From assembly GCA_902812875.1 (NCBI GenBank), contig CADDZV010000006.1, positions 1 through 64,000 on the forward strand: a DNA stretch of 64,000 nt, read 5' to 3'. Numbering within the stretch: position 1 is the stretch's first letter; the number at the start of each line of letters is the position of its first letter. Source of the DNA: Clostridiales bacterium (GTDB taxonomy: Bacteria; Bacillota; Sulfobacillia; CADDZV01). Under the pieces are notes generated by a model. It was not told the DNA's origin, searched no databases, and saw only the letters and a program-made list of their open reading frames with translations. Below, piece by piece: positions 25,454 through 53,704 of this stretch. The translations under genes and the position numbers were made by a program.

Positions 25454-26266
25454 ATGATCATGCTCACGAACGACGACGGCATCAACGCCGACGGTCTCGC
25501 GGCCCTGCGCGAGGCATTCGCGGCCGCTACCAAGACGGCACAAGGCCCGCTTTCCGGGCAGAAAATCGTCGTGGTGGCGCCGGACAGCGAGCGCAGTGCC
25601 TGCGGGCATTCGCTCACGTGGCTGGTGCCGCTGCACGTCGACGACGTGAGTTTCCCCCACAGCGATGTGCCGGGGGTGGCCGTCACCGGCACGCCGGTGG
25701 ACTGCGTGAAGTTGGCCGTGCGTATGCTGTCTCCGCGAAAGATCGATCTCGTGGTAGCAGGCGTCAATCGCGGTCCCAATCTCGGCACCGACATCTTTTA
25801 TTCCGGCACGGTCTCTGGTGCCATCGAGGCGGCGATCTTGGGTGTGCCGGCCATCGCTGTAAGCCTGGGGGCACTTGAGAGCCCCGACTACACGGCCGCC
25901 GCCCGCTTTGCCGCCTACCTGGCCGGGGAGGTGCTGGCCCGGGGCCTGCCAGCCGGCACCCTGCTCAACGTCAACGTACCGGCCATGCCGGCGGAGGAAA
26001 TGGCCGGTGTCGCCGTCACCCGGCTGGGAGTCCACCGCTGGGAAGACACGTACGTCAAGAGGCAGGACCCACGCGGCCGCACCTACTACTGGCTCACCGG
26101 CCATGCCCTCGACGAGCGCGAAGCCCCTGGCACGGATGTGCAGGCCCTGCGGGACAACCTCATTTCGGTGACACCTATTCACCTAGATCTCACGGCGCAC
26201 GATTTCCTGCCGCAGCTGGAAAGCTGGGGCTTATCGGATTGGGGTGGTGCACATGCGAAAGTCTGA
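25454..26266 (+). CDS. surE: 5'/3'-nucleotidase SurE
   Basis: The 270-residue phosphatase has the SurE metal motif TNDDGI at the N-terminus, VVAPDSERSACGHS, and YSGTVSGA. It dephosphorylates nucleoside monophosphates and is often linked to stationary-phase survival. The gene begins 2 bases after the D-aminopeptidase stop and overlaps the next gene by 14 bases, so it is part of that operon. Confidence 0.94.
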   Translation: MIMLTNDDGINADGLAALREAFAAATKTAQGPLSGQKIVVVAPDSERSACGHSLTWLVPLHVDDVSFPHSDVPGVAVTGTPVDCVKLAVRMLSPRKIDLVVAGVNRGPNLGTDIFYSGTVSGAIEAAILGVPAIAVSLGALESPDYTAAARFAAYLAGEVLARGLPAGTLLNVNVPAMPAEEMAGVAVTRLGVHRWEDTYVKRQDPRGRTYYWLTGHALDEREAPGTDVQALRDNLISVTPIHLDLTAHDFLPQLESWGLSDWGGAHAKV

Positions 26267-26759
26267 CACACGCCCTGGCACCAAAGCTGGCGGTCCGTTC
26301 GGACTTCTGCCTCGCTACGGCCAGCCGCTGTATGCATGGAGCTACCACCATCTGGCGGCCCGCGTGGAGACGACCACCTATCTTCTTTGGGGCCTTGGCC
26401 TTGTGCTCTTGCTCGTGCTTTGGACGACCAGATCGGTCATGTGGCTGGTTGGCGCTGCCTTGTTCTTTTTCGTCACCCTCGGGGGTTATTTTCTCCCCTA
26501 CACCTACACACTCACAGACCGGGGTGTCGTGGTCCAAAGCCTCATCCACCGCGACTTCATCCCATGGACACGCGTAAAGTCGTTCACCGTTTACCCCGAC
26601 GGTCTGCAGCTTTCCTTCAGCCCTGCCAACTTGCGGGGGGCACTCATCAGGGGCGCGTTCCTGTTCTGGGGAGAGACACAAAACGAGGCCGTGGAGATCG
26701 TGCGCCAGCACGTGCCGGTGGAGATTCCGGCGTCCGAACTTTCCCGCCGCCGCAAATAG
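26253..26759 (+). CDS. Small membrane protein with a PH/YcxB-like cytoplasmic domain
   Basis: The protein of about 168 residues has two adjacent membrane helices (residues about 45-63 and 68-84) followed by a beta-rich C-terminal domain starting YTLTDRGVVVQ. This is the pattern of bacterial PH-like (YcxB/DUF5673-type) proteins. Function is unknown. Two GTG codons just upstream are alternative starts; the ATG has GGGGTGG 5 bases before it. It ends the surE operon. Confidence 0.65.
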   Translation: MRKSDTRPGTKAGGPFGLLPRYGQPLYAWSYHHLAARVETTTYLLWGLGLVLLLVLWTTRSVMWLVGAALFFFVTLGGYFLPYTYTLTDRGVVVQSLIHRDFIPWTRVKSFTVYPDGLQLSFSPANLRGALIRGAFLFWGETQNEAVEIVRQHVPVEIPASELSRRRK

Positions 26760-26887
26760 CCGTGCGACGGCAAAACATTCCTGCTTGTCATCTACCGAAC
26801 TTTAGACCAGCCAGAAGGATTTTTGGCGGCTTCGCAGAATACCCGTTTTCCAAAGCACCTTGTCAGCCGGATATCAATTTTCCACCG

Positions 26888-26919
26888 GCCGGATGAGCTC
26901 CCGGGAAGCTCCGTCCGGC
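26888..26919 (+). promoter_or_regulatory. Hairpin in the leader of the four-gene membrane operon
   Basis: The 205-base gap before the membrane operon holds a strong interrupted hairpin: GCCGGA with TCCGGC, then GAGCT with AGCTC, around a 7-base loop. It has no T tract, so it is not a terminator. It ends 27 bases before the ribosome binding site and could stabilise the 5' end of an abundant mRNA. No known riboswitch core (B12 box, T-box, SAM, TPP) was recognised, and no clear promoter hexamers. Confidence 0.45.
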
Positions 26920-26964
26920 GGGCGGAAATGGCAATTAAACCTGAGCAAGGAGGTGAAAAAGCAC

Positions 26965-27789
26965 ATGCTAGGTTTGCTTCTTGCCGCAGACGAGCCGGCA
27001 CCCGTACTGGGAATCTTCTGGGCAGACGCCACGGTGGCAGCGTTCGTAGCCACGGTTCTCTTCGCGCTGATGGTATGGTACCTCATTGCTCGTGCCCGTT
27101 CGGGTCTGAAGATCCCGGAGGTCCGCAAGCTGCCCGGCCTGGATGCCTTTGACGAGGCCATCGGCCGTGCTACCGAAATGGGCCGTCCGGTGCACTACTC
27201 GCCAGGTATCTCGGCTGTGAGCTCCACCCAGACCATCGCGTCCTTTGGCATTCTCGGCCACGTGGCCAAACTGTGCGCCAAGTATGACACGCGGCTCATC
27301 CAGACCAACGCCGACATCACTACTTACGGCGTCGCCGAGGAAGTCATTCGCCAGGCCTACCTGGAGGCTGGTCGTCCGGACGCGTTCAACGCAGAAGACG
27401 TTCGGTTCCTGTCTGACTGGCAGTTCGGTTACGCTTCTGGCGTCCTTGGTATCTTCCAGCGTGAGAAACCGGCTGCCAACATCTGCATCGGGGCGTTCTG
27501 GGCCGAGGCCCTGCTCTTCATGGAGGCCGGTGTCAACCAGGGCATGATCCAGGTGGCCGGTACGGCGAACAACGCCCAGCTGCCGTTCTTCGTGGCGACG
27601 GCTGACTACGCCCTCATCGCCGAGGAGATCTACGCTGCGTCGGCCTACCTTTCCAAGGAGCCCGTCATGCTGGGCACTGTGGTGGCCGAGGACTGGGCAC
27701 GTATCATCGTGTTCGCTCTGATCATCGTCGGCACCATCCTTTCCTTCTTCCAGCAGAAGAACTGGCTGGGTGGCATTCTCAAGAAGTAG
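26965..27789 (+). CDS. DUF6754-like membrane protein, first gene of the membrane operon
   Basis: The 274-residue protein has a membrane helix at about 16-38, a roughly 200-residue soluble domain (conserved-looking SPGISAVSSTQTIASFGILG near residue 75), and a C-terminal helix at about 243-262. I recall this domain as DUF6754, of unknown function; this was not verified. AAGGAGGTG sits 9 bases upstream. Arg CGT and Gly GGT codons are more frequent than in neighbours, a sign of high expression. Three further membrane proteins follow at 42, 49 and 33 bases, each with an equally strong site, implying a four-subunit membrane complex. Confidence 0.75.
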   Translation: MLGLLLAADEPAPVLGIFWADATVAAFVATVLFALMVWYLIARARSGLKIPEVRKLPGLDAFDEAIGRATEMGRPVHYSPGISAVSSTQTIASFGILGHVAKLCAKYDTRLIQTNADITTYGVAEEVIRQAYLEAGRPDAFNAEDVRFLSDWQFGYASGVLGIFQREKPAANICIGAFWAEALLFMEAGVNQGMIQVAGTANNAQLPFFVATADYALIAEEIYAASAYLSKEPVMLGTVVAEDWARIIVFALIIVGTILSFFQQKNWLGGILKK

Positions 27790-27831
27790 CTTTACTCGGG
27801 CACAATCCCGGAGCAAAGGAGGTGTCCATAT

Positions 27832-28455
27832 ATGCGTAAGGAAGTGCCCATGATCATCACCGCCCTTTCTGCACTGGCGGCCGTGTTCGGTAACTTCTTC
27901 TGGCTCGGCCACCACTGGGGCGTGATGGACCTCCTCGACAACTGGTTCAACCGCAGTTTTGCCTTCGCTGCCCTGATCGGCGTGATCAACCTTAGCATCA
28001 TCCACATCAACGCCATCCGGCGGCGCAAGGAGAACTGGGTGTACAGCCTGATCCTGCTCATCGCGATGTACGGCTACGCCATCCTGGGCTTGATCCAGAC
28101 GACGGACGGGCCGCAGGCCAGCTGGATTTACAATAACGTGCTGACGCCGCTCGACTCGACGGTGTTCGCCTTGCTGGCCTTCTACATCACGTCCGCCTCG
28201 TACCGTGCCTTCCGGGCCCGGACCGTGGAAGCCACGGTGCTCCTGGTGACGGCCATCGTCGTGATGCTGGGTGTGGCGCCGATCGGTGCGGTGCTATTCA
28301 CCGATAAGATCAGCTCGCTTGCCCAGTGGCTTCTGAACTACGCGAACGCTGGCACGTACCGGGCCTTCAGCATTGCCGGTTCGCTCGGTGCCATGGCTAC
28401 CGCTCTGCGGATTACGCTTGGTCTTGAGCGTGCCCACCTGGGCGGCGCGCAATAA
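27832..28455 (+). CDS. Polytopic membrane protein, membrane operon gene 2
   Basis: The 207-residue protein has five to six predicted membrane helices and short loops, with a basic cytoplasmic turn (INAIRRRKENW). I do not recognise a named family. AAAGGAGGTG lies 8 bases before the ATG. It sits between the DUF6754-like gene and an anchored-domain gene, and is probably the channel-like or structural core of the same complex. No catalytic residues stand out. Confidence 0.65.
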   Translation: MRKEVPMIITALSALAAVFGNFFWLGHHWGVMDLLDNWFNRSFAFAALIGVINLSIIHINAIRRRKENWVYSLILLIAMYGYAILGLIQTTDGPQASWIYNNVLTPLDSTVFALLAFYITSASYRAFRARTVEATVLLVTAIVVMLGVAPIGAVLFTDKISSLAQWLLNYANAGTYRAFSIAGSLGAMATALRITLGLERAHLGGAQ

Positions 28456-28504
28456 CAATGTTCGCTCGCTTGGTTGACACCTGGCGGGAAGGAGGTGCAA
28501 ACGC

Positions 28505-29332
28505 ATGGAAGCTCTTATGAATATTGACCGCCGGTGGCTGTTCCTGGTTGTCTTTGTAATCGTCTTTGGTATTCTGATCCATCCCATCGGGCTGCCGATC
28601 GTAATTGGGCCTGATGCCCAAAAGGCCTATGACTACGTCCAGGGTCTGCCAGCCGGCTCGGTTGTGTGGCTCGGCATCGAGTTCAACCAGTCGTCCAAAG
28701 GCGAGCTTCTGCCCATGGTGCTCGCCGTGGCCAACCAGCTGTTCAAGAATAACGACAAGATCGTGGTCAGCGGCATGTGGCAGTACGGCACGGAGCTCGT
28801 GCAGCCGTACATCGAGAACATTGCACAGAAGTACGGCAAGCAGTACGGGGTCGACTGGATCAACCTCGGGTGGCGGCCGGGCAATGCCACGTTCTTGCAC
28901 CAGGCCACCCAGGACCTGAACGCCGCCTGCGCTGGTGTGGATCACACGGGTCAGCCGCTATCTTCGTTCCCGATTATGCAGTCGGTGAAGGCCCTGACGC
29001 CTGATTACTTCAAGCTGGCCATTGTGTTCGACGCCGGTACGCCGGGTCTGCCCGATGCCTACATCCCGATCGTGTACGAGCCGTTGCACCTGCCGCTTCT
29101 GGACGGCACGATTCAGATGTCCGTGCAGGAGAACAAGAACTACCTGCAGGCCGGCCAGATCGTGGCTATGATCCCCGGTTCCGCAGGGGCGGCTCAGTAT
29201 GAGAAGCTGGTCGGCGTTCCGGGCCAGGCTCTGGCCTCCCAGGACCCGCTGTCCTTGGGTGCCTTGTTCGTGACGTTGCTCGTTATTCTGGGCAACATCG
29301 GTTACTTCGCAACCCGTGGTAAGAAGGCTTAG
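28505..29332 (+). CDS. Membrane-anchored domain protein, membrane operon gene 3
   Basis: The 275-residue protein mirrors gene 1: a membrane helix at about 10-28, a domain of about 210 residues, and a second helix near 250-268 followed by RGKKA. The domain has alternating helix and strand (GSVVWLGIEF, DKIVVSGMWQYG, FKLAIVFDAG), suggesting a Rossmann-like or TPM-like fold; no family name is assigned. AAGGAGGTG lies 9 bases before the start. Confidence 0.65.
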   Translation: MEALMNIDRRWLFLVVFVIVFGILIHPIGLPIVIGPDAQKAYDYVQGLPAGSVVWLGIEFNQSSKGELLPMVLAVANQLFKNNDKIVVSGMWQYGTELVQPYIENIAQKYGKQYGVDWINLGWRPGNATFLHQATQDLNAACAGVDHTGQPLSSFPIMQSVKALTPDYFKLAIVFDAGTPGLPDAYIPIVYEPLHLPLLDGTIQMSVQENKNYLQAGQIVAMIPGSAGAAQYEKLVGVPGQALASQDPLSLGALFVTLLVILGNIGYFATRGKKA

Positions 29333-29365
29333 TGTGCCAGGCCCAATGTAAGGAGGTGAAAAACA

Positions 29366-29968
29366 ATGCAGGGTTTTGACTGGGGCACCTTCGTAGGCGT
29401 TCTCTTCACCATCGCGGTGTGGACCTACCTCTACAAGGAGAACCCCATCTGGCGTGTTGCTGAGCACATCTACATCGGCCTGGCCACGGCATGGTCGATA
29501 GGCTACTACTTCTACTCCTATGTCAAGCCTACGATCATGGACGACATTCTGACCAAGCACAACTGGCTGTACATCGTGCCGGTCATCCTGGGGCTGATGA
29601 TGTACCTGCGGTACTTCCCGTCGGTCGCCTGGCTGGCACGTTACCCGATGTCGTTCTGGGTAGGCTACGGTGCTGGGTACGGCCTGGCGTTCAGCTTTGC
29701 CCCGATGCTGACGTGGATTGCTCAGACGTTCGTCAAACTTAACAGCTTCAACAACATCGTGTTGTGGCTGGCCGTCGTGACGGGTCTCATGTACTTCTTC
29801 TTCACCGTGAACCGGGAGAATGCGGTGGTGAAGTACGGTGCCCTTGTGGGTCGTTACTTCATCATGGTCGGCCTGGGTGCCGCGTTCGGAAACACGGTGC
29901 TGTACCGCTACAACCTGTTCATCGACCGTGCCCGGTATGTACTCGGGTTCTTGCATCTGATCAAGTGA
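29366..29968 (+). CDS. Polytopic membrane protein, membrane operon gene 4
   Basis: The 200-residue protein has about six membrane helices. It contains EHIYIGLATAWS and WVGYGAGYGLAF segments and is rich in aromatic residues. It has no recognised family. TAAGGAGGTG lies 8 bases before the ATG, and an intrinsic terminator follows 36 bases after the stop. This closes the operon and makes the four genes one transcription unit. Confidence 0.65.
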   Translation: MQGFDWGTFVGVLFTIAVWTYLYKENPIWRVAEHIYIGLATAWSIGYYFYSYVKPTIMDDILTKHNWLYIVPVILGLMMYLRYFPSVAWLARYPMSFWVGYGAGYGLAFSFAPMLTWIAQTFVKLNSFNNIVLWLAVVTGLMYFFFTVNRENAVVKYGALVGRYFIMVGLGAAFGNTVLYRYNLFIDRARYVLGFLHLIK

Positions 29969-30004
29969 ACGCATAACCGGGTGCAGTTTCGCGAGGGAGA
30001 AACG

Positions 30005-30035
30005 GCAGGGGCCCGCTCCCGGGGCGGGTCCCTGC
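30005..30035 (+). terminator. Intrinsic terminator of the membrane operon
   Basis: A 12-bp stem with one G-T pair (GCAGGGGCCCGC with GCGGGTCCCTGC) and a 7-base loop is followed by TTGTAGTTTT. It separates the four membrane genes from the ATPase operon, which therefore needs its own promoter. An AT-rich island at about 30112-30135 stands out in the GC-rich gap and may hold it. Confidence 0.75.
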
Positions 30036-30210
30036 TTGTAGTTTTCCGGAGCAGCCGTTTTGACGGTTGTAATTATTGGCTGTGACCGGCGCCAGGAAAA
30101 GTAGGGTGCATGATCTAATAAAATTAAGATACATTTGCGGCCCGTACGGATAATTGCCAGGATGTGAGTTCATCCAGGGTCTCCTCGGGTCGTGCAAAGG
30201 AGGAGGTCTT

Positions 30211-32145
30211 GTGGCCGTATCTGCTGAGAAGCCAAAGCCGGAGTCCATACTGGCCACGGATGTCGGCAGCACCACCACCAAGGCGATTCTCATCGAGAAA
30301 CGCGGTGACGAGTATCGTCTGATCACCCGTGGCGAGATGCCAACGACCGTAGAGGCCCCGTGGGACAACGTCATGATTGGGGTGCGGAAGGCCGTTCGGC
30401 GTGTTTCCGAGCTTATCGAGCGGCCGTTGCTCGATGAGAGCGGCCATCTGATCAGGCCCAAGCAAGGCAACCGCGGCGTGGACATGTACGTGTCGACCAG
30501 TTCCGCGGGCGGCGGCCTACAGATGATGGTGGGCGGGCTCGTTTCCGCCATTAGTGCCACGAGTGCCCACCGGGCGGCGTTGGGCGCCGGGGCGGTGGTA
30601 CTCGACGTGATTGCCGTGGATGACGGCCGGTCCACGTCCGAGCAGATCACCCGTATTTCTGAGCTGCGGCCGGATATCGTCTTGATTTCGGGCGGCGTGG
30701 ACGGCGGGTCGGTGACGTATCTGGCCGCCCTTACCGAGACGGTCATGGAGGCCAACCCGCAGCCGCGGTTCGGCATGACCTACAAGCTTCCGTTTATCTA
30801 CGCCGGCAACAAAGACGCGGCGGACATGATCCAGGATATGGCTTCCAAGCAATTTGCGGTACATGTGGTGGACAACCTGCGGCCATCGCATGACGTAGAG
30901 AATCTTGGCCCTGCCCGGCAGGCGATTCACGACATTTTTATGAACCACGTTATGGCCCAGGCACCCGGCTACCACGAGCTCATGGAGTGGGTGGACACGC
31001 AGATCATGCCCACGCCGGGAGCAGTCGGCAGCCTGATCGCCCTGATGGCCAAACAGTATGGCATCAACATTATAGGCGTGGACATTGGCGGGGCCACCAC
31101 GGACGTTTTCTCCGATTTTGGCGGCACGTTTACACGTACGGTATCTGCCAACCTGGGCATGAGTTATAGCATTACAAACGTTTTGGAAGAGGCCGGGTTC
31201 GAGAACATACGGCGTTGGGTGCCGTTTGGCATCGACGAAGAGAGCTTCTCCAACTGGATCAGCAACAAAATGGTCCGGCCTACAACTATTCCGCAGACGT
31301 GGTACCACCTTATGCTGGAGCAGGCCCTGGCTCGCGAGGCCCTGCGGCTTTCGTTCGAACATCACAAGAGCCTGGCCCGCAAGGTCGAGAAGACCGAAGA
31401 CTCCATGGCCATGCGCACGCGGACGGAGCTTTTCGCCTCTTCCAAGGGTGTCGAGGTCATCGACATGATGAAACTCCACATGCTGGTGGGCTCCGGCGGT
31501 GTATTGTCCCACGCGCCGCGCCGGTCGCAGGCCGCCCTGATGCTCATGGACTCCTTCCAGCCGCAGGGCGTCACCGAACTTACCGTAGACAGCATTTTCA
31601 TGATGCCGCACCTCGGTGTGCTTGGCTCTGTGTATCCGGACATCGCGGCGGAGGTTTTCGACAAGGACTGCCTGGTGCGGCTGGGCACCCTCATCGCCCC
31701 GGCTGGCCGGAGCAAGGAGGGACGGCCGGTTGCCACTGTCCATGTGAGCAGAGCAAACGGCACCAGTGAGGACGTTACTGTCCGCTACGGCGAGATCGTG
31801 CGGCTGCCGCTCGGCGTAGGCGAAACCGCCCACGCGACCGTCACGCCGGACGGGGCGTTTGACATGGGGGCCGGCAAGGGCAAGAAAGTGGACGTTGAGT
31901 TGCACGGCGGGCTCGTTGGCATCATCATCGACGGCCGTGGCCGGCCGATTGAAATCCCCACGGATGAGGCCAAGCGGGTCGAGCGGGTAGCCCAGTGGAT
32001 TCATGCCATGGAAGCCTACCCCGACGACGTAGTGCAGAAGTACATCAACCAGTACGCCGCCAAACCGGCGCCGGCGGCGTCCAAGTCTGAGCGGAACGGG
32101 GGGCAGGAACGTGGCGGTCTCTTTAACCGGCTACTCAAACGCTAG
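30211..32145 (+). CDS. MutL/GlmL-type ASKHA ATPase, copy 1
   Basis: The 644-residue protein has the actin/Hsp70 (ASKHA) ATPase signature: phosphate-1 loop DVGSTTTKA (Asp17, residues 17-25) and phosphate-2 loop VDIGGATTD (about 290-298), plus GSGGVLSHAP. Databases call this family 'glutamate mutase L', but no mutase gene is in this window. A C-terminal tail (GGLFNRLLKR) looks like an amphipathic membrane-targeting helix as in FtsA. The GTG start has AAAGGAGGAGG upstream. Its end overlaps the next gene by 35 bases. Probable role: nucleotide-driven assembly or remodelling of the membrane complex encoded just upstream (inference). Confidence 0.8.
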   Translation: MAVSAEKPKPESILATDVGSTTTKAILIEKRGDEYRLITRGEMPTTVEAPWDNVMIGVRKAVRRVSELIERPLLDESGHLIRPKQGNRGVDMYVSTSSAGGGLQMMVGGLVSAISATSAHRAALGAGAVVLDVIAVDDGRSTSEQITRISELRPDIVLISGGVDGGSVTYLAALTETVMEANPQPRFGMTYKLPFIYAGNKDAADMIQDMASKQFAVHVVDNLRPSHDVENLGPARQAIHDIFMNHVMAQAPGYHELMEWVDTQIMPTPGAVGSLIALMAKQYGINIIGVDIGGATTDVFSDFGGTFTRTVSANLGMSYSITNVLEEAGFENIRRWVPFGIDEESFSNWISNKMVRPTTIPQTWYHLMLEQALAREALRLSFEHHKSLARKVEKTEDSMAMRTRTELFASSKGVEVIDMMKLHMLVGSGGVLSHAPRRSQAALMLMDSFQPQGVTELTVDSIFMMPHLGVLGSVYPDIAAEVFDKDCLVRLGTLIAPAGRSKEGRPVATVHVSRANGTSEDVTVRYGEIVRLPLGVGETAHATVTPDGAFDMGAGKGKKVDVELHGGLVGIIIDGRGRPIEIPTDEAKRVERVAQWIHAMEAYPDDVVQKYINQYAAKPAPAASKSERNGGQERGGLFNRLLKR

Positions 32146-33469
32146 ATATCCCATCACCTATATACGCAAGACACGGCGGCTGCCCTTACCGGGCGAGGTG
32201 CTGGCCAAGGTTGGGGACCGGGTCAGCCCCGACACGGTGGTGGCCCGCATCAACCTTCGCCCGGGCATCCCGTGGGTACTGCCGGTAGCCCGCATGATCG
32301 GTATCGAACCGCAGGACTTGCCGTCGGCCATGCTCAAAAAAGTTGGCGACACGGTCAAAACCAAGGAAGTCATCGCCCGGTCCAGCGAGAAAGGCCTATA
32401 CGGGCGGAAGGAGTATACGTCGCCTACCGATGGCATCATCGAAGAGATCTCGGCCCGTTCCGGACGGGTGACCATCCGCGAGGTGTTTGGCAAGGAGGAG
32501 CCGCCGGTCAAGGTAGACGTGGCCTTCGAGCTCGGCTGCAGCCCGCGGGATGTGCCGAAGAACATGCTGGTCAAGGTCGGGCAGGAGGTCAAAAAAGGCG
32601 CCATGCTGGCCAAAAAAGGCGAAATGCAGGCCTTCATGACCAAGACCTGCCTCGCCCCGATCACCGGTGTCGTCACGGAGATCGACGAAAAGACTGGCTA
32701 CGTCACCATTTCCCGGCCGTTCAAGGAAGTGGTCGCCAAGGCCTACCTCGATGGCTACGTCTCCGAGGTCATCCCCGAGCGCGGCGTGGTGGTGGAGACC
32801 AAAGGCATTCGCATTACAGGTATTTTCGGCCTTGGGCGGGAGACCCATGGCGAACTCAAGGTACTGGTCTCGTCACCCGACGACGTACTGGAGGCCAGCA
32901 TGATTGACCAGTCGCTGGCGGGCAAGGTGATCGTGGGCGGTTCTTTTGCCACCAACGAGGCCCTGAGCAAGGCCCTGGAGGTGGGTGTGAAAGGCGTCAT
33001 CACTGGCACAGCCTCGTACCTGAACCTGGTGAAGTCCCTTGGGGTGCGTCTCGGGGTCGGCATTACCGGCCAGGAGGACATCCCCATCACGGTAATCCTC
33101 ATGGAAGGCTTCGGTAAGCTGGACATGCATGCCGACGCCTTCAACGCCCTGAAATTTCTCGACGGCTACCCGGTGTCCATCAACGGGGCCACGCAGATCC
33201 GGGCGGGTGCCATCCGGCCCGAGATCATCGCGTCCTTCCCGGATTACGACGGGCCGGTGAGCGAAGCGCGGGTCATCGACGAGGAACTGGCTCTTGGGCA
33301 GCGGGTGCGTGTGATCAACGAACCGTATTTTGGGGCACATGGCACGGTCATCGGCCTGCCGCGTCTGCCGCAGCGCATCGAGACCGAGGCGGAGGTGCCG
33401 GTGGTGGAGCTCGAGCTCGACAGCGGGGAACGGGTCGTGGTGCCGCGGCCGAACGTGGAGGTCTTCTAG
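32111..33469 (+). CDS. Barrel-sandwich (lipoyl-like) repeat and KOW-like protein, copy 1
   Basis: The 452-residue protein contains three copies of the lipoyl-fold hairpin motif (VLAKVGDRV, MLKKVGDTV, MLVKVGQEV at about residues 30, 74 and 152). A 78-residue module is tandemly duplicated (about 56-126 and 134-204). The middle region has ITGQEDIPIT...EGFG. The C-terminus (about 390-452) resembles a KOW/SH3 barrel. No lipoyl- or biotinyl-Lys motif is present, so the folds are probably structural. It overlaps the ATPase gene and always follows one in this window, so the two likely bind each other. Confidence 0.7.
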   Translation: MAVSLTGYSNARYPITYIRKTRRLPLPGEVLAKVGDRVSPDTVVARINLRPGIPWVLPVARMIGIEPQDLPSAMLKKVGDTVKTKEVIARSSEKGLYGRKEYTSPTDGIIEEISARSGRVTIREVFGKEEPPVKVDVAFELGCSPRDVPKNMLVKVGQEVKKGAMLAKKGEMQAFMTKTCLAPITGVVTEIDEKTGYVTISRPFKEVVAKAYLDGYVSEVIPERGVVVETKGIRITGIFGLGRETHGELKVLVSSPDDVLEASMIDQSLAGKVIVGGSFATNEALSKALEVGVKGVITGTASYLNLVKSLGVRLGVGITGQEDIPITVILMEGFGKLDMHADAFNALKFLDGYPVSINGATQIRAGAIRPEIIASFPDYDGPVSEARVIDEELALGQRVRVINEPYFGAHGTVIGLPRLPQRIETEAEVPVVELELDSGERVVVPRPNVEVF

Positions 33470-33493: not shown

Positions 33494-33877
33494 ATGATTT
33501 TTGAGGTTTCCCCGGAGCGGCGTGACTACATCATCAACCGCGTGGCAGAAGAAGTCGTCAAGCGGCATCTGGAAGTGCCTATGATGATGTTTGTGGAGAT
33601 GCACAAGCCCATCGCCAACATTGCTGGACAGGGTGCCCACTATTTTGCTCCGTTCGCCGGGGCCCTCCTGGGGAACGACCTCCTGGATGAAGTCGGCTTC
33701 ATTCTGGAAGACAAGCAAAACCTCGACCGTCTTCTCGAACGCATGGAGATCCTGACCGCCGAGCGGGACGAGAAAGAACGCCTGGAACGTCAGCAGGCCC
33801 AGCTGGTGGAAGAGCTGGCCGATGGTGCCAAGACACCGTCGCGCGGGCCATGGTGGGCGTTCTGGCGCCGGCGGTAG
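33494..33877 (+). CDS. Small coiled-coil protein with Trp-rich basic C-terminal tail
   Basis: The 127-residue protein has helices at the N-terminus (RRDYIINRVAEEVVKRHLE), a charged coiled-coil at about 75-108 and a tail ending GPWWAFWRRR. The tail looks like an interfacial membrane anchor. No family is recognised. It lies between the first and second ATPase pairs, 24 bases after one gene and 28 before the next, so it belongs to the same transcript and may link the ATPases to the membrane. Confidence 0.6.
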   Translation: MIFEVSPERRDYIINRVAEEVVKRHLEVPMMMFVEMHKPIANIAGQGAHYFAPFAGALLGNDLLDEVGFILEDKQNLDRLLERMEILTAERDEKERLERQQAQLVEELADGAKTPSRGPWWAFWRRR

Positions 33878-33905: not shown

Positions 33906-35774
33906 TTGCCGGAGGAGACAGTAAAGACATACAAATTGGACCGGGAGATCAACTCCGTCCTCGCGACTGACTGCGGCAGCACCACCACCAAGGCTATTCT
34001 CATCGAAAAGGTTAACGGCGAATACCGCCTGGTGGTGCGGGGCGAAGCCCCCACCACGGTGGAGGCCCCGTTCGAGGACGTCACCATGGGTGCTCGCAAT
34101 GCTATCCGCGAGGTGGAGGAACTCACTGGCCGGCGGCTTCTGGACGAGAACGGTGTGATTACACCGCGCCAGCCGGATGGCAGCGGCGTGGACATCTACC
34201 TGTCGACCAGTTCTGCTGGCGGCGGGCTGCAGATGATGGTGGCGGGCGTGATCAAGATCATGACCGCCGAATCGGCCGAGCGGGCCGCCCTCGGCGCCGG
34301 TGCCATCGTCATGGACACCATCTCCATCGACGACGGCCGGAAGCCATTCGAAAAGATCCAGCGCATCCGCCATTTGCGGCCGGACATGATCCTTTTGTCC
34401 GGTGGTATCGACGGCGGTACCATCACGCACGTGGTGCAGATCGCCGAACTAATCGCGGCGGCCGAGCCCAAGCCCCGTCTTGGTATTGGGTTCAAGCTGC
34501 CTATCATCTATGCGGGCAACGCCGACGCCCGCAGCCACATGGAAAAGATCCTCGGTGAGAAGACCGACCTGCGGGTGGTGGACAACATCCGGCCGGTGCT
34601 GGAGAAGGAGAACCTCGGGCCAGCCCGGGAGGAGATCCACCGCCTGTTCATGGAGCACGTTATGGCTCAGGCGCCCGGTTACAACAAACTCATGAAGTGG
34701 ACGCCGGTGCCCATCATGCCGACGCCCGGTGCGGTAGGTCTTCTAATGCAGCAGGCCGCCCGCACCTTCGACCTCAGCCTGGTGGGGGTGGACATCGGCG
34801 GGGCGACCACCGACGTGTTCTCGGTTTTCGGCGCCAACCACGAATTCTTCAACCGCACCGTGTCAGCCAACCTTGGCATGTCCTACAGCATCTGCAACGT
34901 GCTCCTGGAGGCCGGGGTGGCGAACATCAGGCGGTGGATACCGTTCGACATCGACGAGGCGGATCTGCGGAACCGCATCCGGAACAAGATGATCCGTCCC
35001 ACCACCATCCCCCAGACCATGGAGGAATTGATCATCGAGCAGGCTTTGGCCCGCGAGGCCCTGCGGCTTGCGTTCGAGCACCACAAGAGCCTGGCGGTGG
35101 GGCTGCGCGGGGTGCAGCGCACGATCGACGTGTCCCGTACGTTTGCGGACCAGCAGGTGTCGGCGGGTACCCTCGTCGATCTGATGGAGCTCGGGATGCT
35201 GGTGGGCTCTGGCGGTGTGCTTTCGCACGCTCCCCGGCGGGTGCAGTCCGCCCTCATGATGCTTGATGCCTTTGTGCCGGAAGGGTTCACGCGGCTTACG
35301 GTGGACAGCATCTTCATGATGCCCCAGCTCGGCGTGCTGTCCACGGTGCACCCGGAAGCGGCCACCCAGGTGTTCGACCGCGACTGCCTCATCCGCCTGG
35401 GCGAGGCCCTGGCACCGGTGGGACCGGGCCGCGATGGCCAGGACGCCGTCACGGTGACGATGACCCCCTCGCAAGGAAAGCCGGTGACGGTGACTGTCCC
35501 GTTCGGTTCCATGGCTCTTCTGCCGTTGCCGGAGGGTACCACGGCTGAGGTCGAGGCCAAGCCGCACCAGGGCCTTGACGTCGGCGGCGGACGCGGCCGC
35601 ACTGTGAAACGCACCATCGAAGGCGGTGTGGTGGGCTTTATCATCGACGCCCGCGGCCGGCAGCCGTTTGTGCTTCCGGATGATACCAAAGAGCGGAACC
35701 GCAAGCTGATCGAGTGGTTGCGGGCCCTGGACGTATACCCGGCGGAATATCTCGACCAGCTGGCCAAGGCTTAG
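33906..35774 (+). CDS. MutL/GlmL-type ASKHA ATPase, copy 2
   Basis: The 622-residue paralogue of the first ATPase keeps both nucleotide loops (DCGSTTTKA at 22-30; VDIGGATTD at about 295-303), the SVSANLGMSYSI-like region and GSGGVLSHAPRR. It lacks the basic amphipathic tail of copy 1 and ends in QLAKA. The start is TTG, 10 bases after GGAGG. Two intact but different copies in one operon suggest a heteromeric ATPase. Function as a mutase reactivase is not supported by context. Confidence 0.8.
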   Translation: MPEETVKTYKLDREINSVLATDCGSTTTKAILIEKVNGEYRLVVRGEAPTTVEAPFEDVTMGARNAIREVEELTGRRLLDENGVITPRQPDGSGVDIYLSTSSAGGGLQMMVAGVIKIMTAESAERAALGAGAIVMDTISIDDGRKPFEKIQRIRHLRPDMILLSGGIDGGTITHVVQIAELIAAAEPKPRLGIGFKLPIIYAGNADARSHMEKILGEKTDLRVVDNIRPVLEKENLGPAREEIHRLFMEHVMAQAPGYNKLMKWTPVPIMPTPGAVGLLMQQAARTFDLSLVGVDIGGATTDVFSVFGANHEFFNRTVSANLGMSYSICNVLLEAGVANIRRWIPFDIDEADLRNRIRNKMIRPTTIPQTMEELIIEQALAREALRLAFEHHKSLAVGLRGVQRTIDVSRTFADQQVSAGTLVDLMELGMLVGSGGVLSHAPRRVQSALMMLDAFVPEGFTRLTVDSIFMMPQLGVLSTVHPEAATQVFDRDCLIRLGEALAPVGPGRDGQDAVTVTMTPSQGKPVTVTVPFGSMALLPLPEGTTAEVEAKPHQGLDVGGGRGRTVKRTIEGGVVGFIIDARGRQPFVLPDDTKERNRKLIEWLRALDVYPAEYLDQLAKA

Positions 35775-35790: not shown

Positions 35791-36915
35791 GTGGCCAACG
35801 CATATACCCCCGGTTTGAAGGTTACAGAACAGGCAACGGTCCGCAAGACTCGCCGCCTGCCGATTTTGGGCGAGGTGCTGGTGCAGCCGGGTCAGGAGGT
35901 CCGGCCGGACGACGTGGTGGCCCGGGCCAGTCTTCCCGGCAATCCCCAAACCGTCAACTTGGCGGCCCTGCTCGGGGTGGGCGAGCCGCAGGACGTCGTG
36001 CATTATCTACTCAAAAAGCCTGGCGACCCGGTCAAAAAGGGCGAGGTCATCGCCCGTACGTCGGGTCTTTTTGGACTGTTTAAAAAAGAGGTGACGTCTC
36101 CCATTGACGGCACCATCGAGATGGTGAGTACCGTGACCGGCCAGGCCGTGCTGCGGGAGCCCCCGATCCCGGTGGAGGTTACGGCCTACATCAAAGGTAA
36201 GGTGGTCGACGTCATCCCGCGCGAGGGTGCGATCATCGAGACGACCGGGGCCTTCATCCAGGGCATCTTCGGCGTCGGTGGCGAGCGCCGCGGCATCATC
36301 GATGTGGCGGTCTCGTCCCCAGACGACATCCTCGATGCCCCGGCCATCGGGCCGCAGCACAAGGGTAAGGTGGTCGTCGGCGGATCCCTCATGACCGGTG
36401 CCGCGATCAAGAAGGCGGCCCAGGTGGGTGCGAGTGCTCTCGTGGCGGGCGGGATCATCGACACCGACTTGGTGGAATTCCTCGGTCACGATATCGGCGT
36501 GGCAATTACCGGCCACGAGGACGTCCCGCTTACCCTGATGATTACCGAGGGCTTCGGGCGTATCCGCATGGCCCAACGGACGTTCGACCTGTTCCGGCAG
36601 CTGGCCGGCGAGGAATGCTCGATCAACGGTGCGACACAGATCCGGGCCGGTGTGATGCGGCCGGAGGTGATCGTGCCCGGGCACAAGCCGTCTGGGCTCG
36701 TGGCACAACAGAACCTGCAGGAGGGACTGGCTCCCGGGATGCCGGTGCGCATCATCCGTGAGCCGTATTTTGGGCTTCTGGCGGAAGTGGTCGACCTGCC
36801 GCCGGAGCTCCAGGTCATCGAGACGGAAGCCAAAGTGCGTATATTGCACGCTCGTCTGCAGGACGGCCGGGTAGTGACCATCCCGCGCGCCAACGTGGAG
36901 ATTATCGAAAGCTGA
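35791..36915 (+). CDS. Barrel-sandwich (lipoyl-like) and KOW-like protein, copy 2
   Basis: The 374-residue paralogue of the copy 1 partner has two hairpin motifs (VLVQPGQEV and LLKKPGDPV) instead of three; it is shorter by exactly one 78-residue module. The [10 protein letters not shown]...EGFG block and the C-terminal KOW-like end ([16 protein letters not shown]) are retained. No modification Lys is seen. GTG start behind TAGGAGGCG; it follows the second ATPase by 16 bases. Confidence 0.7.
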
Positions 36916-36929
36916 TTGGGGGGGCAGAC

Positions 36930-38087
36930 ATGCTGGCGATTGTGAACGGTCGGGTGTTCCCCGTGACCAGCGCGCCCATCGAGGACGGGGTCGTGCTCGT
37001 GGACCGGGGCAAGATCCTGGCGGTGGGCCGGGACGTGAGCATTCCCGCCGGTGCCCAGGTGATTGATGCCGCTGGCAAGTATGTGCTGCCGGGATTTGTT
37101 GATGCCCACACCCACCTGGGGGTGCACGAGGAAGGGGTCGGCTGGGAAGGCAGCGACGGCAACGAAGCCACCGATCCGGTGACCCCGCACCTGCGTGCCA
37201 TCGACGGATTCAACCCTGCCGATCAGGGTCTGCGGGACGCGGTCGCAGGCGGCATCACCACCGTGTGGGTGACACCGGGCAGCGCCAACGTGATCGGTGG
37301 GCTCGGGTTCACGGTGAAAACCGCTGGCACCACGGCCGACGCCATGGTGGTCAAAAACCCCTCCGGTCTGAAGGCGGCCTTTGGCGAAAACCCCAAGCGG
37401 GTCTACACGGAGCGGAAGACCGTGCCTACGACGCGCATGGGCGTGGCCGGGGTGTTGCGTGAGGCACTGCTCAAGGCCCAGACCTACATGGCAAAGCAGG
37501 CCCGGTACAAGGACGACCCCGACAAGGCCCCGGACCGCGACCTCAAGATGGAGGCGATCGCGTTGGTGCTCCGCGGCGAGTTGCCGCTCCGCACCCATGC
37601 CCACCGGGCCGATGACATCCTCACGGCCCTGCGGATCGCCAAGGAATTTGGAATCAAAATCACCATCGAACACGGTACGGAAGGACATCTCATCGCTGGC
37701 ATCCTGGCGGCCGAGCATGTGCCTGTAAACGTGGGGCCCTCGTTCTCCACGCGGCGCAAGGTGGAGCTGCGGGAGCGCTCGTTCAAGACGCCTGCCGTGC
37801 TCGCAAAGGCGGGCGTCAAGGTGAGCCTTATTACCGACCACCCAGTCATGCCGATCCAGCTGTTGCCGCTGGCGGCGGGCGTGGCGGTGCGTGAGGGCCT
37901 CAGCGAGGAAGAAGCCCTGCGGGCCATTACCATCAACCCGGCCGCAGTGTGCGGGGTCGAAGATCGCGTCGGTTCGCTCGAACCGGGCAAGGACGCGGAC
38001 GTAGTAATCTGGGACGGGCACCCGTTCGACACCAGGTCGCGGGTGCTGTACACCATCATTAATGGCGAGATCGCGTATCAAGCCTGA
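36930..38087 (+). CDS. Amidohydrolase (imidazolonepropionase/dihydroorotase-like)
   Basis: The 385-residue metal hydrolase has the complete ligand set: DAHTHLG (HxH), [15 protein letters not shown] and the catalytic Asp in ITDHPVMP. It ends with the family's [14 protein letters not shown] segment. Cyclic amide or imide hydrolysis is expected, but the substrate is unknown. It begins 14 bases after the second barrel-sandwich gene, so it is co-transcribed with the ATPase system. Whether this is functional or accidental cannot be told here. Confidence 0.85.
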
Positions 38088-43937: not shown

Positions 43938-44633
43938 GTGGAAGAGCCGATCCTGCGGGCTGTCTCGGTAACCCGCGCCTACCACCTGGGAGAAACGATC
44001 TATGCTGTGCACGATGTCAGCCTTGCCATTGACCGCGGCGAGTTTGTGCTGGTCACGGGACCTTCCGGGAGCGGCAAAACGACGCTTCTGCACCTTTTGG
44101 CCGGCCTTGACCGTCCCATGTCGGGTGATGTCATTCTGGACGGCACGCGGTACAGCCGGCTCAGCGAGAACGGCTTGGCCAAGCTCCGCCGGGAGAAAAT
44201 CGGCTTTGTATTCCAGTTTTTCAACCTAATTCCTCATCTAACGGCGCTGGAGAATGTCGTGCTGCCGCTGCGGCTGGCCGGCATGTCGCCGGCCCAGGCC
44301 AGGGAGCGGGCGCGGTCGGTCTTGGAAACCGTGGGCCTCGGTCATCGCATCAACCACCTGCCGGGGCAGCTTTCCGGCGGCGAACAGCAGCGGGTGGCCG
44401 TGGCCCGGGCCCTGGCACCGCGGCCGGCGGTGGTCCTGGCCGACGAGCCGACCGGAAACCTTGACAGCAACGCGGGTCTGGCTTTGGCCGGCCTTTTCCG
44501 CAAGGTCAACCAGGAACAGGGCCAGACCTTTGTGGTGGTGTCCCACGACCCGCGCCTGGAGGAATTTGCTGACCGCGTGGTAGTCATGGGCGACGGGCGT
44601 ATACAGGACGTGCGGGTGAGAGGGGGGCGGTAG
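43938..44633 (+). CDS. ABC transporter ATPase, LolD/MacB type
   Basis: The 231-residue ATPase has Walker A GPSGSGKTT, signature LSGGEQQR, Walker B VVLADEPTGNLD and switch His VVSHDPR. The TGNLD ending marks the MacB/LolD/FtsE class that works with FtsX-type permeases, which follow. These are usually mechanotransmission or efflux systems. Start GTG with GGGGGAGGGA upstream. Confidence 0.9.
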   Translation: MEEPILRAVSVTRAYHLGETIYAVHDVSLAIDRGEFVLVTGPSGSGKTTLLHLLAGLDRPMSGDVILDGTRYSRLSENGLAKLRREKIGFVFQFFNLIPHLTALENVVLPLRLAGMSPAQARERARSVLETVGLGHRINHLPGQLSGGEQQRVAVARALAPRPAVVLADEPTGNLDSNAGLALAGLFRKVNQEQGQTFVVVSHDPRLEEFADRVVVMGDGRIQDVRVRGGR

Positions 44634-44634
44634 C

Positions 44635-46095
44635 TTGTTTATCGACCTCGGCATCCGCAATGCCTGGCGGAACCGCCAAAAAAGCCTTCTCATCATCATC
44701 AGCATGGCGGTGGCAAGCCTCATGCTGGGCTCGGCCCTGTCGCTCAGCCATGGCTACCCGGCCAACATCGACCTTGTGCAGCGGGGGTTCATGGGCGGGG
44801 ATGTGGCCGTGTACGCCCCGCGGTTTGCCATCAGCCAGTCAGATCTGGCGACAAACTTCGCCTATGCCCGCCTGCCGGCCGACGATCTTTCCGCCCTGGG
44901 AGATCTCGACCCCGAGCTCTACCAGGAAGGTTTTCTGACCGTGCCTGGCGAAGGCCAGGGCTATATGCCGCTTGTGGAAACGGCCGACCGCCTGTCTACC
45001 AGCCGCTATGTGCGCGCGGTCTACCCGTATTACATCCTTCCGGGCTTTCTGAGCGACAATGACGGCTCCGGCACCCTGGCCCCCCTGCGGGGGAGGAATC
45101 CTTTCCTGGACCGGGTGTACTTCCACTACCAGGATACGGTGGTCGCAGGCCGTTATCTTGATACCACTGACGAGGGCCAGATGGTGGCGGTGGTGGACTT
45201 GGGCCGCGAACGTCAGGGACTGCCGCTGCCGGCCGTCGGCAACCTTGTCGCGGTGCGGGTGCCTGCGATCAGGACCGATGCCTCTGGCCAGATCTACTAC
45301 GACTACTCGGCCAGCCGAGTTTTCACGTTCCAGGTCATCGGCCAGATTTCGATGGCCACCAGGCAGTATTCCTACGGTTCGGGACGCGACACCCGCTCGG
45401 TGCAGCTGTATTGGAACACACCGCAGATCATGATCCCGAGTTCTACCTGGCAACAGATCTACTACGAGATGTCCGGCGGGCAGCGGGTCACCGCGGTCCC
45501 GGAGATGGGAGTGATCCTGGGTGACCTCAGCCAGGCCAACGATGTCGCCGCGGACCTGCAGGCCAGGCTGCCCGCCCATACGGTGGTGGCGGTGCCGGCC
45601 CACATTGCGGTAGCCGCCAGCCGCGGCTTGCCGGAGCCCCTCACCGCGATTCCACCGGAATACCGGCCGACCACGGCCCCCAAATGGCAGCTCGGGATTC
45701 CGGTGGACATGACCAGCATGATCATGCTCGTCGTGTATCTCACGGCCGGGTTACTGGCCGCCACCAACATGCTGGCGCTTTTGACCCGGCGGCGGCAGGA
45801 GATGGGCATCCTGCGGGCACTGGGAGCGACTGCCGCCGAGGTGGTGCTGATGATCGAAACCGAGGTGGCCACCCTGTCCATTCTGGGCGTGGTGATCGGT
45901 TTCGGCTTCGTACGTCTTGTGGCCATTTCCACTTTAGTCTCAAACCAGGTGTCCTTTGCCGGCATCGTGACCAATACCCTGGCCGATCTCGGCCGGGTGG
46001 TCGGGGTGACAGTGGCCTGTGCCTTGGTCTTCGGATTGTTCCCGGCTTTGCGGGCCGTGCACATGAGGCCGGTGGAGGTGCTGCGGCGTGAATAG
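44635..46095 (+). CDS. FtsX-domain ABC permease, large subunit
   Basis: The 486-residue protein has an N-terminal membrane helix (about 17-40), a long extracytoplasmic domain to about 355 and three C-terminal helices with the FtsX-fold turn (RRRQEMGILRALGAT). This is the MacB/LolC layout. It starts at TTG 2 bases after the ATPase stop and overlaps the next permease by 8 bases. Confidence 0.85.
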   Translation: MFIDLGIRNAWRNRQKSLLIIISMAVASLMLGSALSLSHGYPANIDLVQRGFMGGDVAVYAPRFAISQSDLATNFAYARLPADDLSALGDLDPELYQEGFLTVPGEGQGYMPLVETADRLSTSRYVRAVYPYYILPGFLSDNDGSGTLAPLRGRNPFLDRVYFHYQDTVVAGRYLDTTDEGQMVAVVDLGRERQGLPLPAVGNLVAVRVPAIRTDASGQIYYDYSASRVFTFQVIGQISMATRQYSYGSGRDTRSVQLYWNTPQIMIPSSTWQQIYYEMSGGQRVTAVPEMGVILGDLSQANDVAADLQARLPAHTVVAVPAHIAVAASRGLPEPLTAIPPEYRPTTAPKWQLGIPVDMTSMIMLVVYLTAGLLAATNMLALLTRRRQEMGILRALGATAAEVVLMIETEVATLSILGVVIGFGFVRLVAISTLVSNQVSFAGIVTNTLADLGRVVGVTVACALVFGLFPALRAVHMRPVEVLRRE

Positions 46096-47272
46096 GCCAC
46101 AACCAAAAGCACGTGGCATGGGTTTTGCGGAGGCTTTGGCTAGCACGTTTTTCCTGGCATGGAAAAATCTGCAACATTTCTGGCTGCAGAACCTGTTGTT
46201 GGCAGGGCTCCTCGGGGTTACCCTGGCCGGGTATGTACTCTTTTCCTTCTATATGGGCACGGGCGGCGTAAAGGGGCCGCCGGCCTTCCCGGACACCGGC
46301 TTGGGGAGCACGTATGTGGCCGTCCTGCCGGCGCCGCAAAAGCTGGCCAACCTGCGGAAATCCTTGGCCGAGACCACGGCGGCTGCGGACGTGCCCTCAC
46401 TCGAATGCGGGGTATACAGCGAAATCTACACAAACCTGGGTGAGCTGCCGGTACTGGGTGTGACCGCCCAGAGCGGGCTGTGGGGCCGGCTCGGCGTGAC
46501 GGCGCCACCGGCGGGCAGTGTGCTCGTGCCTGCGGATTTGGCCGCACGGGCGGGCGTGTCGCAAGGCAGCGTGCTGACTATCGTCAACGTGGCAAGCGGG
46601 CAAAGCCAAACCTTAAGTGTGGCGGGCGTCTTCCAGCCGCCCATTGGCCTGCTCGATGCCGTGCTCAGCACGAATGACGCGGCGGCCAACGGCGGGAATG
46701 TTGTCCTGGGGTTCATGGCGAGCGGGGCGGTCCGGTCCGGCGCCGCCAAGGCCTGGCTTGAATCGCTGCCGCCGGTGGTCTTGCAGGGACCCGACTTCCT
46801 GTCCACGCTGTGGGACCGGCTGCGGGCCCAGGTCACCGCTCCCGGCGCCACGGTGGTCACCATGATCTTCCTGTTCGCAGCTCTGGGGGTCATGTCCGTG
46901 CTTTTCCTGTCGTTCCTTGACCGTCGCCCGGAGCTCGCGATCCTGAAAACTGTGGGGGTAGAGAGCGTCCAGATTACGGCCATGTTCGTGTGGGAAGTCC
47001 TGGTGGCTGCCCTCGGCGGGGCCGTGCTGGGAGCGTTTCTGGTAGCCGCCGGCCGGGGAGTGCTCGGCTGGCTCGGTACCCCGCTTGCTCACGGGGCCGG
47101 GCAGCTCGGGCCGGCGTTCTTGCGTGGCCTTTTGGGCCTGTTGGCGTTTACAGCGGTGGGGGCGGCGCTGCCAGTGGCGCTGGCACGGGCTGCCACCGTC
47201 ACCGAGCTTATGAGCGATGGCGGGATCTATCTGATCCGGCGACGCGTAGCGGCCTGGCGTAAGCCGGTGTGA
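46088..47272 (+). CDS. FtsX-domain ABC permease, second subunit
   Basis: The 394-residue protein has the same plan as its neighbour with a smaller extracytoplasmic domain. Helices lie near 30-50 and at the C-terminus, where RRPELAILKTVGVES marks the FtsX domain. It starts with GTG overlapping the previous stop. The third ATPase-like gene begins 29 bases downstream, so these transporters and the third ATPase pair may share a transcript. Confidence 0.82.
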   Translation: MNRPQPKARGMGFAEALASTFFLAWKNLQHFWLQNLLLAGLLGVTLAGYVLFSFYMGTGGVKGPPAFPDTGLGSTYVAVLPAPQKLANLRKSLAETTAAADVPSLECGVYSEIYTNLGELPVLGVTAQSGLWGRLGVTAPPAGSVLVPADLAARAGVSQGSVLTIVNVASGQSQTLSVAGVFQPPIGLLDAVLSTNDAAANGGNVVLGFMASGAVRSGAAKAWLESLPPVVLQGPDFLSTLWDRLRAQVTAPGATVVTMIFLFAALGVMSVLFLSFLDRRPELAILKTVGVESVQITAMFVWEVLVAALGGAVLGAFLVAAGRGVLGWLGTPLAHGAGQLGPAFLRGLLGLLAFTAVGAALPVALARAATVTELMSDGGIYLIRRRVAAWRKPV

Positions 47273-47301
47273 TGCCACGGACCGGCAAAGGAGGGTCGAC
47301 A

Positions 47302-51424: not shown

Positions 51425-53704
<2,280 letters not shown>

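Follow-up and report, generated by a model that had tools for sequence, protein, structure and literature searches.

A conserved four-gene unit that probably encodes a membrane complex, and its MutL-type ATPase neighbours, in a Clostridiales bacterium

DUF6754 (PF20539) is a Pfam family without an assigned function, the proteins of the MutL/GlmL family (PF13941) are described as accessories of B12-dependent mutases, and RnfC and NqrA carry an N-terminal barrel-sandwich domain. Relatives of all of these lie side by side in a stretch of 64,000 nucleotides from a Clostridiales bacterium of the Bacillota (contig CADDZV010000006.1, positions 1 to 64,000), hereafter called the window. Four consecutive membrane protein genes, here named g1 to g4, begin with a DUF6754 gene and are followed by genes for a MutL/GlmL-like ATPase and a barrel-sandwich hybrid (BSH) protein. 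We found that g1-g4 are one unit, and the observation is real and goes beyond chance. The gene set probably encodes a membrane complex, whose function and task we infer below.

The four open reading frames (ORFs) are present where the original prediction had placed them, all on the plus strand: g1 at 26965-27789, g2 at 27832-28455, g3 at 28505-29332 and g4 at 29366-29968. The g1 protein matches DUF6754 over residues 23-265 (306.9 bits against a cut-off of 27) and is itself an ordinary member of this family. No Pfam or NCBIfam family was matched above its cut-off by g2, g3 or g4, and Pfam scans of 35, 53 and 39 relatives of these three proteins returned scattered weak matches only. A match of g2 to a Pfam family for the N-terminus of nucleoside transporters (22 bits against a cut-off of 27) was rejected because it was common to only 1 of the 35 members.

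To follow the genes in other genomes, 101 loci were assembled from the window, 20 genome stretches with DUF6754 matches and 80 loci from a scan of GTDB genomes, the last being the best 80 of 572 confirmed relatives. With families found by iterated profile search, the order g1-g2-g3-g4 was recovered across these loci. There were 121 distinct copies of g1 after removal of one duplicate; when the 25 copies with less than 3.5 kb downstream were also left out, g2-g3-g4 followed g1 in 94 of 96 copies, with exceptions at L071 and L131. Matrices of pairwise distances, compared between the four proteins, correlate with coefficients of 0.70-0.85; the largest value in 200 permutations was 0.148. In addition, the cassettes are often tandem or inverted, and the unit therefore seems to duplicate as a block.

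The cassette is widely distributed. Among 299 genomes drawn once from the phylum, 25 contained DUF6754, with up to eight matches each, and there was none in 14 control genomes. The record titles of the best 80 of the 572 relatives span a dozen or more phyla, including Bacillota (among them Symbiobacterium and Fermentithermobacillaceae), WOR-3/Stahlbacteria, Edwardsbacteria, Coatesbacteria, Zixiibacteriota, Latescibacterota, Poribacteria, Cloacimonadota, Fermentibacteria, Eisenbacteria, Sumerlaeota and others, and within these 80 the nearest relatives of the window cassette are Bacillota. A metagenome-assembled genome named S. thermophilum carries the set, and Symbiobacterium has a cultured species. 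A whole cassette is also present in a record titled as a Methanomethylicota archaeon (L109).

Signs of strong translation were found on all four genes. The ribosome-binding sites match the tail of the 16S rRNA over 10, 10, 9 and 10 bases and read, on the plus strand, AAGGAGGTGA for g1 (26947-26956), AAAGGAGGTG for g2 (27815-27824), AAGGAGGTG for g3 (28489-28497) and AAGGAGGTGA for g4 (29350-29359). The very strong sites announced in the original prediction are thus all there, with a slight correction to their spacing of 8-9 bases: the distance from the end of AAGGAGGTG to the ATG is 9, 7, 7 and 7 bases. For comparison, a simple script of our own called 242 genes in the window and in 12 additional stretches from this genome; the calls include a few spurious ORFs, such as 32396-32848 on the minus strand, which was called instead of the BSH gene. 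A match of at least 9 nt was present in 12 of the 242 genes, and g1-g4 account for 4 of those 12. If sites were independent and strong ones occurred as often as in the other genes (8/238), the chance of four strong sites in a row would be about 1e-6 per position.

The codons of the four genes are also unusual. The background consisted of 196 called genes, after exclusion of ORFs shorter than 300 nt, 19 ribosomal-protein genes and ORFs overlapping ten target genes. CGT supplies 15 of the 34 Arg codons in g1-g4, 682 of 5054 in the background and 62 of 321 in the 19 ribosomal-protein genes, and the corresponding counts of GGT among Gly codons are 31/81, 1019/6200 and 59/299. Taken together, CGT and GGT make up 0.485, 0.346, 0.355 and 0.400 of the Arg and Gly codons of g1, g2, g3 and g4. 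These values exceed those of all credible called genes, including ribosomal proteins and GroEL, once some short ORFs at the top of the ranking, which lack a ribosome-binding site, are set aside as spurious. The range was 0.07-0.32 for 26 genes on a ribosomal-protein stretch, with 0.18 for GroEL and 0.17 for RpoC; EF-Tu, EF-G, RpoB, S12 and L7/L12, sought by motif as extra controls in L167, were not found there. The adjoining ATPase and BSH genes are ordinary in this respect (36th and 56th percentile), so the predicted richness in CGT and GGT relative to the neighbours was borne out.

The codon adaptation index (CAI) computed against ribosomal proteins, which had been proposed as a check on high expression, was high for g1-g4 (0.717, 0.771, 0.749 and 0.761; 88th, 99th, 98th and 99th percentile among the 196 genes) but does not make a sharp test. 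The low index that the original prediction had named as a ground for refuting it was thus not observed. The ribosomal proteins barely exceed the background (leave-one-out mean of 0.676 against a background mean of 0.664), and CAI is therefore a weak yardstick in this genome; for this reason, the case for expression was built on the ribosome-binding sites and CGT/GGT. The top CAI of the background genes, 0.801, belongs to a lipoprotein-like protein encoded at 58681-60264 on the minus strand. The narrow margin of the ribosomal proteins points to weak codon selection in the genome, as would suit an explanation of the strong sites and the CGT/GGT excess by local composition or chance instead of high expression. 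However, the adjoining ATPase and BSH genes have ordinary CGT and GGT contents and shorter sites, and the strong sites of g1-g4 are seen again in relatives, so we regard this explanation as highly improbable.

In the relatives, for which the best site among the possible starts was taken by the same rule for every family, sites of at least 9 nt precede g1 in 29 of 121 copies, g2 in 21 of 113, g3 in 29 of 112 and g4 in 21 of 110, against 1 of 31 for the mutL genes and 1 of 30 for the bsh genes. Likewise, g1-g4 are richer in CGT and GGT than the mutL and bsh genes in 20 of the 27 loci carrying both. As judged from these counts, strong translation is a recurring property of the four membrane genes, which sets them apart from their ATPase neighbours, though it is far from universal. 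Taken with the sites and codons in the window, this makes the high expression put forward in the original prediction a reasonable expectation.

The genes following g4 on the plus strand are a MutL/GlmL-like ATPase gene (mutL1, 30211-32145), a BSH gene with an RnfC_N-type domain (bsh1, 32111-33469), a gene for a small conserved protein (sm7, 33494-33877), a second ATPase gene (mutL2, 33906-35774) and a second BSH gene (35791-36915). The two ATPases match PF13941 with 402.2 and 429.5 bits against a cut-off of 27. Among 28 long MutL ORFs, the phosphate-1 motif of the ASKHA fold was present in all 28, the phosphate-2 motif in 26 and the adenosine pattern in 18. Against the GlmL model of glutamate mutase (NF040745), the window proteins scored 219.9 and 226.8 bits, below the cut-off of 475. 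The RnfC_N domain (PF13375) of bsh1 was matched with 29.4 bits against a cut-off of 25.6, whereas the full-length RnfC model (TIGR01945) gave 18.3 bits against 245.95; thus, the match is to the N-terminal barrel domain only.

BSH proteins and DUF6754 mostly occur in the same genomes. Among the 299 genomes, a BSH protein (query P0006) was found in 24 and DUF6754 in 25, with 23 common to both, so that BSH is present in 23 of 25 DUF6754 genomes and in 1 of 274 others. The DUF6754 genomes are not all independent, because they fall in 11 families.

Structure predictions gave an outline of the proteins. As the original prediction had proposed, g1 and g3 are predicted to have a helix-domain-helix plan, and g2 and g4 are predicted to be polytopic, with about six transmembrane helices and both termini inside by charge in g2 and six to seven helices in g4. 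The AlphaFold2 models (mean pLDDT of 91.6 for g1 and 95.3 for g3) both consist of a transmembrane helix, a six-strand alpha/beta domain and a second helix, with an identical order of elements. Sequence profiles showed no alignment of g1 with g3 (1.8%) or of g2 with g4 (0.8%), and g2 and g4 have no detectable relationship. Consequently, the suggestion of two matched pairs holds for g1 and g3, which share a fold plan without sequence similarity and are predicted to face opposite sides, and fails for g2 and g4. The sides were predicted from charge: the 15-residue stretch that follows the first g1 helix contains on average 4.65 Lys/Arg per sequence, and g3 has on average 3.02 before its first helix and 3.29 after its last, which would place the g1 domain in the cytoplasm and the g3 domain outside. 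Across 56 sequences, g1 has a mean column identity of 58% and 33 invariant positions.

A sequence search of solved structures gave a best E value of 0.85, and Foldseek found nothing under E 0.001 in the PDB for g1 or g3. With slower structural alignment, g1 resembled Sir2 (1ma3_A, Z 11.2, 3.8 A, 144 residues), transhydrogenase domain III (9l76_A, Z 9.8, rmsd 3.2, 136 residues; 1d4o, Z 9.6) and CODH epsilon (3cf4_G, Z 9.3), and g3 resembled MT0777 (Z 10.5), CODH epsilon (9c0q_C, Z 9.1, 3.1 A, 141 residues) and Sir2 (1yc2_D, Z 8.3). Both domains are therefore predicted to fall among the Rossmann-like nucleotide-binding folds. The likeness of g1 to transhydrogenase domain III, together with the RnfC_N domain of the BSH partner, raises the possibility of a pyridine-nucleotide-linked ion pump, in which NAD(P) binding would fall to the Rossmann domains and ion movement to the polytopic subunits, as in transhydrogenase or Rnf/Nqr. 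First, however, Sir2 scores higher, and many unrelated Rossmann folds give similar scores. Second, g1 has no profile similarity to PntB (hhalign probability of 0.6%, with one PntB sequence), a search of this genome for PNTB gave no match, and none of g1-g4 matches a redox family in Pfam or NCBIfam. Third, the only nearly invariant Cys in g1-g4, at alignment position 213 of g1, is missing from the window g1. Thus, an ion pump of this kind is very unlikely.

The genes around cassettes in other phyla were also considered. At some candidate-phyla loci, glycine-cleavage genes (a cluster in 8/101) precede the cassette, and 3' of it are found a lipoate ligase (6/101), a TonB-receptor-like gene (8/101) or a PorV/UPF0164-like barrel gene (9/101). 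At L080, L084, L088, L091, L106 and L108, glycine-cleavage P-protein genes, some with lipoate ligase, flank sm7-mutL-bsh-g1-g4. Read from stop to stop, 69 of 122 g1 ORFs have at least 118 residues before the domain; these N-terminal extensions were FN3-like in 7 of 10 tested, none above the curated cut-off, and in those other phyla they fit an outside N-terminus of g1. Such extensions, and the barrel and receptor genes, would be expected if the complex were an envelope-spanning scaffold or energiser for cell-surface machinery, which in bacteria with two membranes would work with outer-membrane proteins. Nevertheless, few loci have the TonB or PorV genes and those that do are probably related, the PorV match lies below its family cut-off, and the lineage of the window belongs to the Bacillota, which mostly have no outer membrane and in which g1 is found without the extension. 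We therefore consider a scaffold or energiser unlikely, and the neighbouring genes do not settle the task of the cassette.

We propose that g1-g4 form an abundant, obligate four-subunit membrane complex, with a MutL-type ATPase serving it from the cytosolic side, and our confidence in this proposal is evenly balanced. The ribosome-binding sites of the four genes are equally strong, which suggests that the complex is stoichiometric, and its subunits would be made in large, roughly equal amounts. In such a complex, g2 and g4 would be the membrane-embedded core, to which g1 and g3 would each add a Rossmann-like domain on two helices, that of g1 in the cytoplasm and that of g3 outside. The less strongly translated MutL/GlmL-like ATPase, its BSH partner and sm7 would work on the complex from the cytoplasmic side and would probably assemble, activate or reset it by cycles of ATP, by analogy with GlmL-type proteins, which are thought to act likewise on their mutases. 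The task would likely be transport or sensing across the membrane, with the Rossmann domains binding a nucleotide or cofactor. A bolder version, which we advance only tentatively, is that g1-g4 are a previously unrecognised two-faced membrane machine with four subunits and, on each face, a Rossmann-like domain that senses or catalyses, driven or assembled by a MutL-type ATPase of the actin/Hsp70 fold, abundant, spread over many phyla whose bacteria are mostly uncultivated and present in sometimes seven or eight copies per genome.

Several results weigh against the proposed complex, apart from the CAI of the ribosomal proteins given above. Ligand binding by the Rossmann domains is a guess, because they have no close solved relative. 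Near the cassette, either 5' or 3', sm7 was found in 21, mutL in 25 and bsh in 27 of the 101 loci, so that in most related loci g1-g4 stand with no mutL-bsh pair close by. The co-occurrence also has exceptions: one genome (G009) has BSH without DUF6754, and two have DUF6754 without BSH, of which G019 is 78% complete and G095 has a divergent DUF6754. Copy numbers do not match either, with 1 DUF6754 and about 7 BSH genes in G281 and 7 and about 5 in G233. Finally, MutL-BSH pairs occur without the cassette, beside ABC/FtsX genes or alone. In the window, a LolD/MacB-type ABC ATPase gene and two genes for FtsX-like permeases are followed by another MutL-like ATPase and BSH protein, the third such pair there (43938-50217), and a similar arrangement is found in G233 (L151). 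Because cassette-free pairs exist and copy numbers differ, the MutL-BSH pair may be a module of general use that serves several membrane systems, its link to g1-g4 being only one of many and g1-g4 working largely alone; several pairs lack obvious membrane partners. On the other hand, such a module would not lead one to expect the near-perfect co-occurrence of BSH and DUF6754 in the 299 genomes, which includes cases where they are not adjacent, and we find this explanation somewhat unlikely.

A terminator-like hairpin of 15 pairs lies between g4 and mutL1 (30004-30036, plus strand). The folded region of 71 bases has an energy of -40.3 kcal/mol (z of -3.2), and the T-run is imperfect. A terminator scan found 3 sites where 2.9 were expected, no richer than in shuffles, and the hairpin therefore rests on its own strength only. 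In a stricter search for a hairpin followed by T residues, 1 of 11 loci with mutL close 3' of g4 had a candidate (L052), and the hairpin of the window was not flagged. A hairpin at this position would fit separate expression levels of g1-g4 and the ATPase gene.

The genes 5' of the cassette in the window are metabolic and apparently unrelated. Upstream of g1, a small membrane protein (p9, 26244-26759, plus strand) has homologues in 11 of the 101 related loci. A scan of 26700-30300 against Rfam gave no match, a scan for sigma-70-type promoters found none, and the PADLOC models of anti-phage defence matched none of nine proteins at E 0.01. Other observations concern the MutL-BSH pairs. Just 3' of the second BSH gene, an ORF at 36930-38087 looks by its start like an amidohydrolase, and ORFs resembling it are found close to further MutL-BSH pairs in L154, L162 and L163. 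In L147, histidine-kinase-like and response-regulator-like ORFs lie between two such pairs. The MutL-BSH pair of L164 (G009:C18) belongs to a genome that is 98% complete and has no match to DUF6754. Elsewhere in the window, a gene at 51425-53704 with a 9-base ribosome-binding site encodes an AAA protein of the ClpB/ClpC type that has a CxxC in its N-terminus and a stretch resembling UVR/McsA.

A gene unit that keeps its order across many phyla, bears signs of very high production and reaches seven or eight copies in some genomes suggests that a piece of basic bacterial physiology has been missed. We found no known system under which g1-g4 could be filed: no paper in the open-licence PMC literature was found for the term DUF6754, and searches of that literature gave no name or description for the four-gene system. 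The family DUF6754 covers g1 only, and nothing found in these searches describes g2-g4, the fixed four-gene unit or the link to an ATPase. So far, the cassette has been known only through this one domain of unknown function, and a common cell machine may thus be unstudied. Sir2, transhydrogenase domain III and CODH epsilon have folds like the domains of g1 and g3, at middling Z scores that are common for this fold and with no sequence relationship found. The first BSH protein shares the N-terminal barrel-sandwich domain of RnfC and NqrA but falls far below the full-length cut-offs of RnfC, RsxC, PrdC and NqrA, and g1-g4 match none of the subunits of the Rnf/Nqr ion pumps in Pfam or NCBIfam. 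The window ATPases match the MutL/GlmL family and carry ASKHA motifs; they fail the NCBIfam cut-offs for GlmL, Or-4 and glmL_fam and adjoin membrane genes. The same data connect this family, so far known for assisting mutases, to membrane machines and give it a second, testable role.

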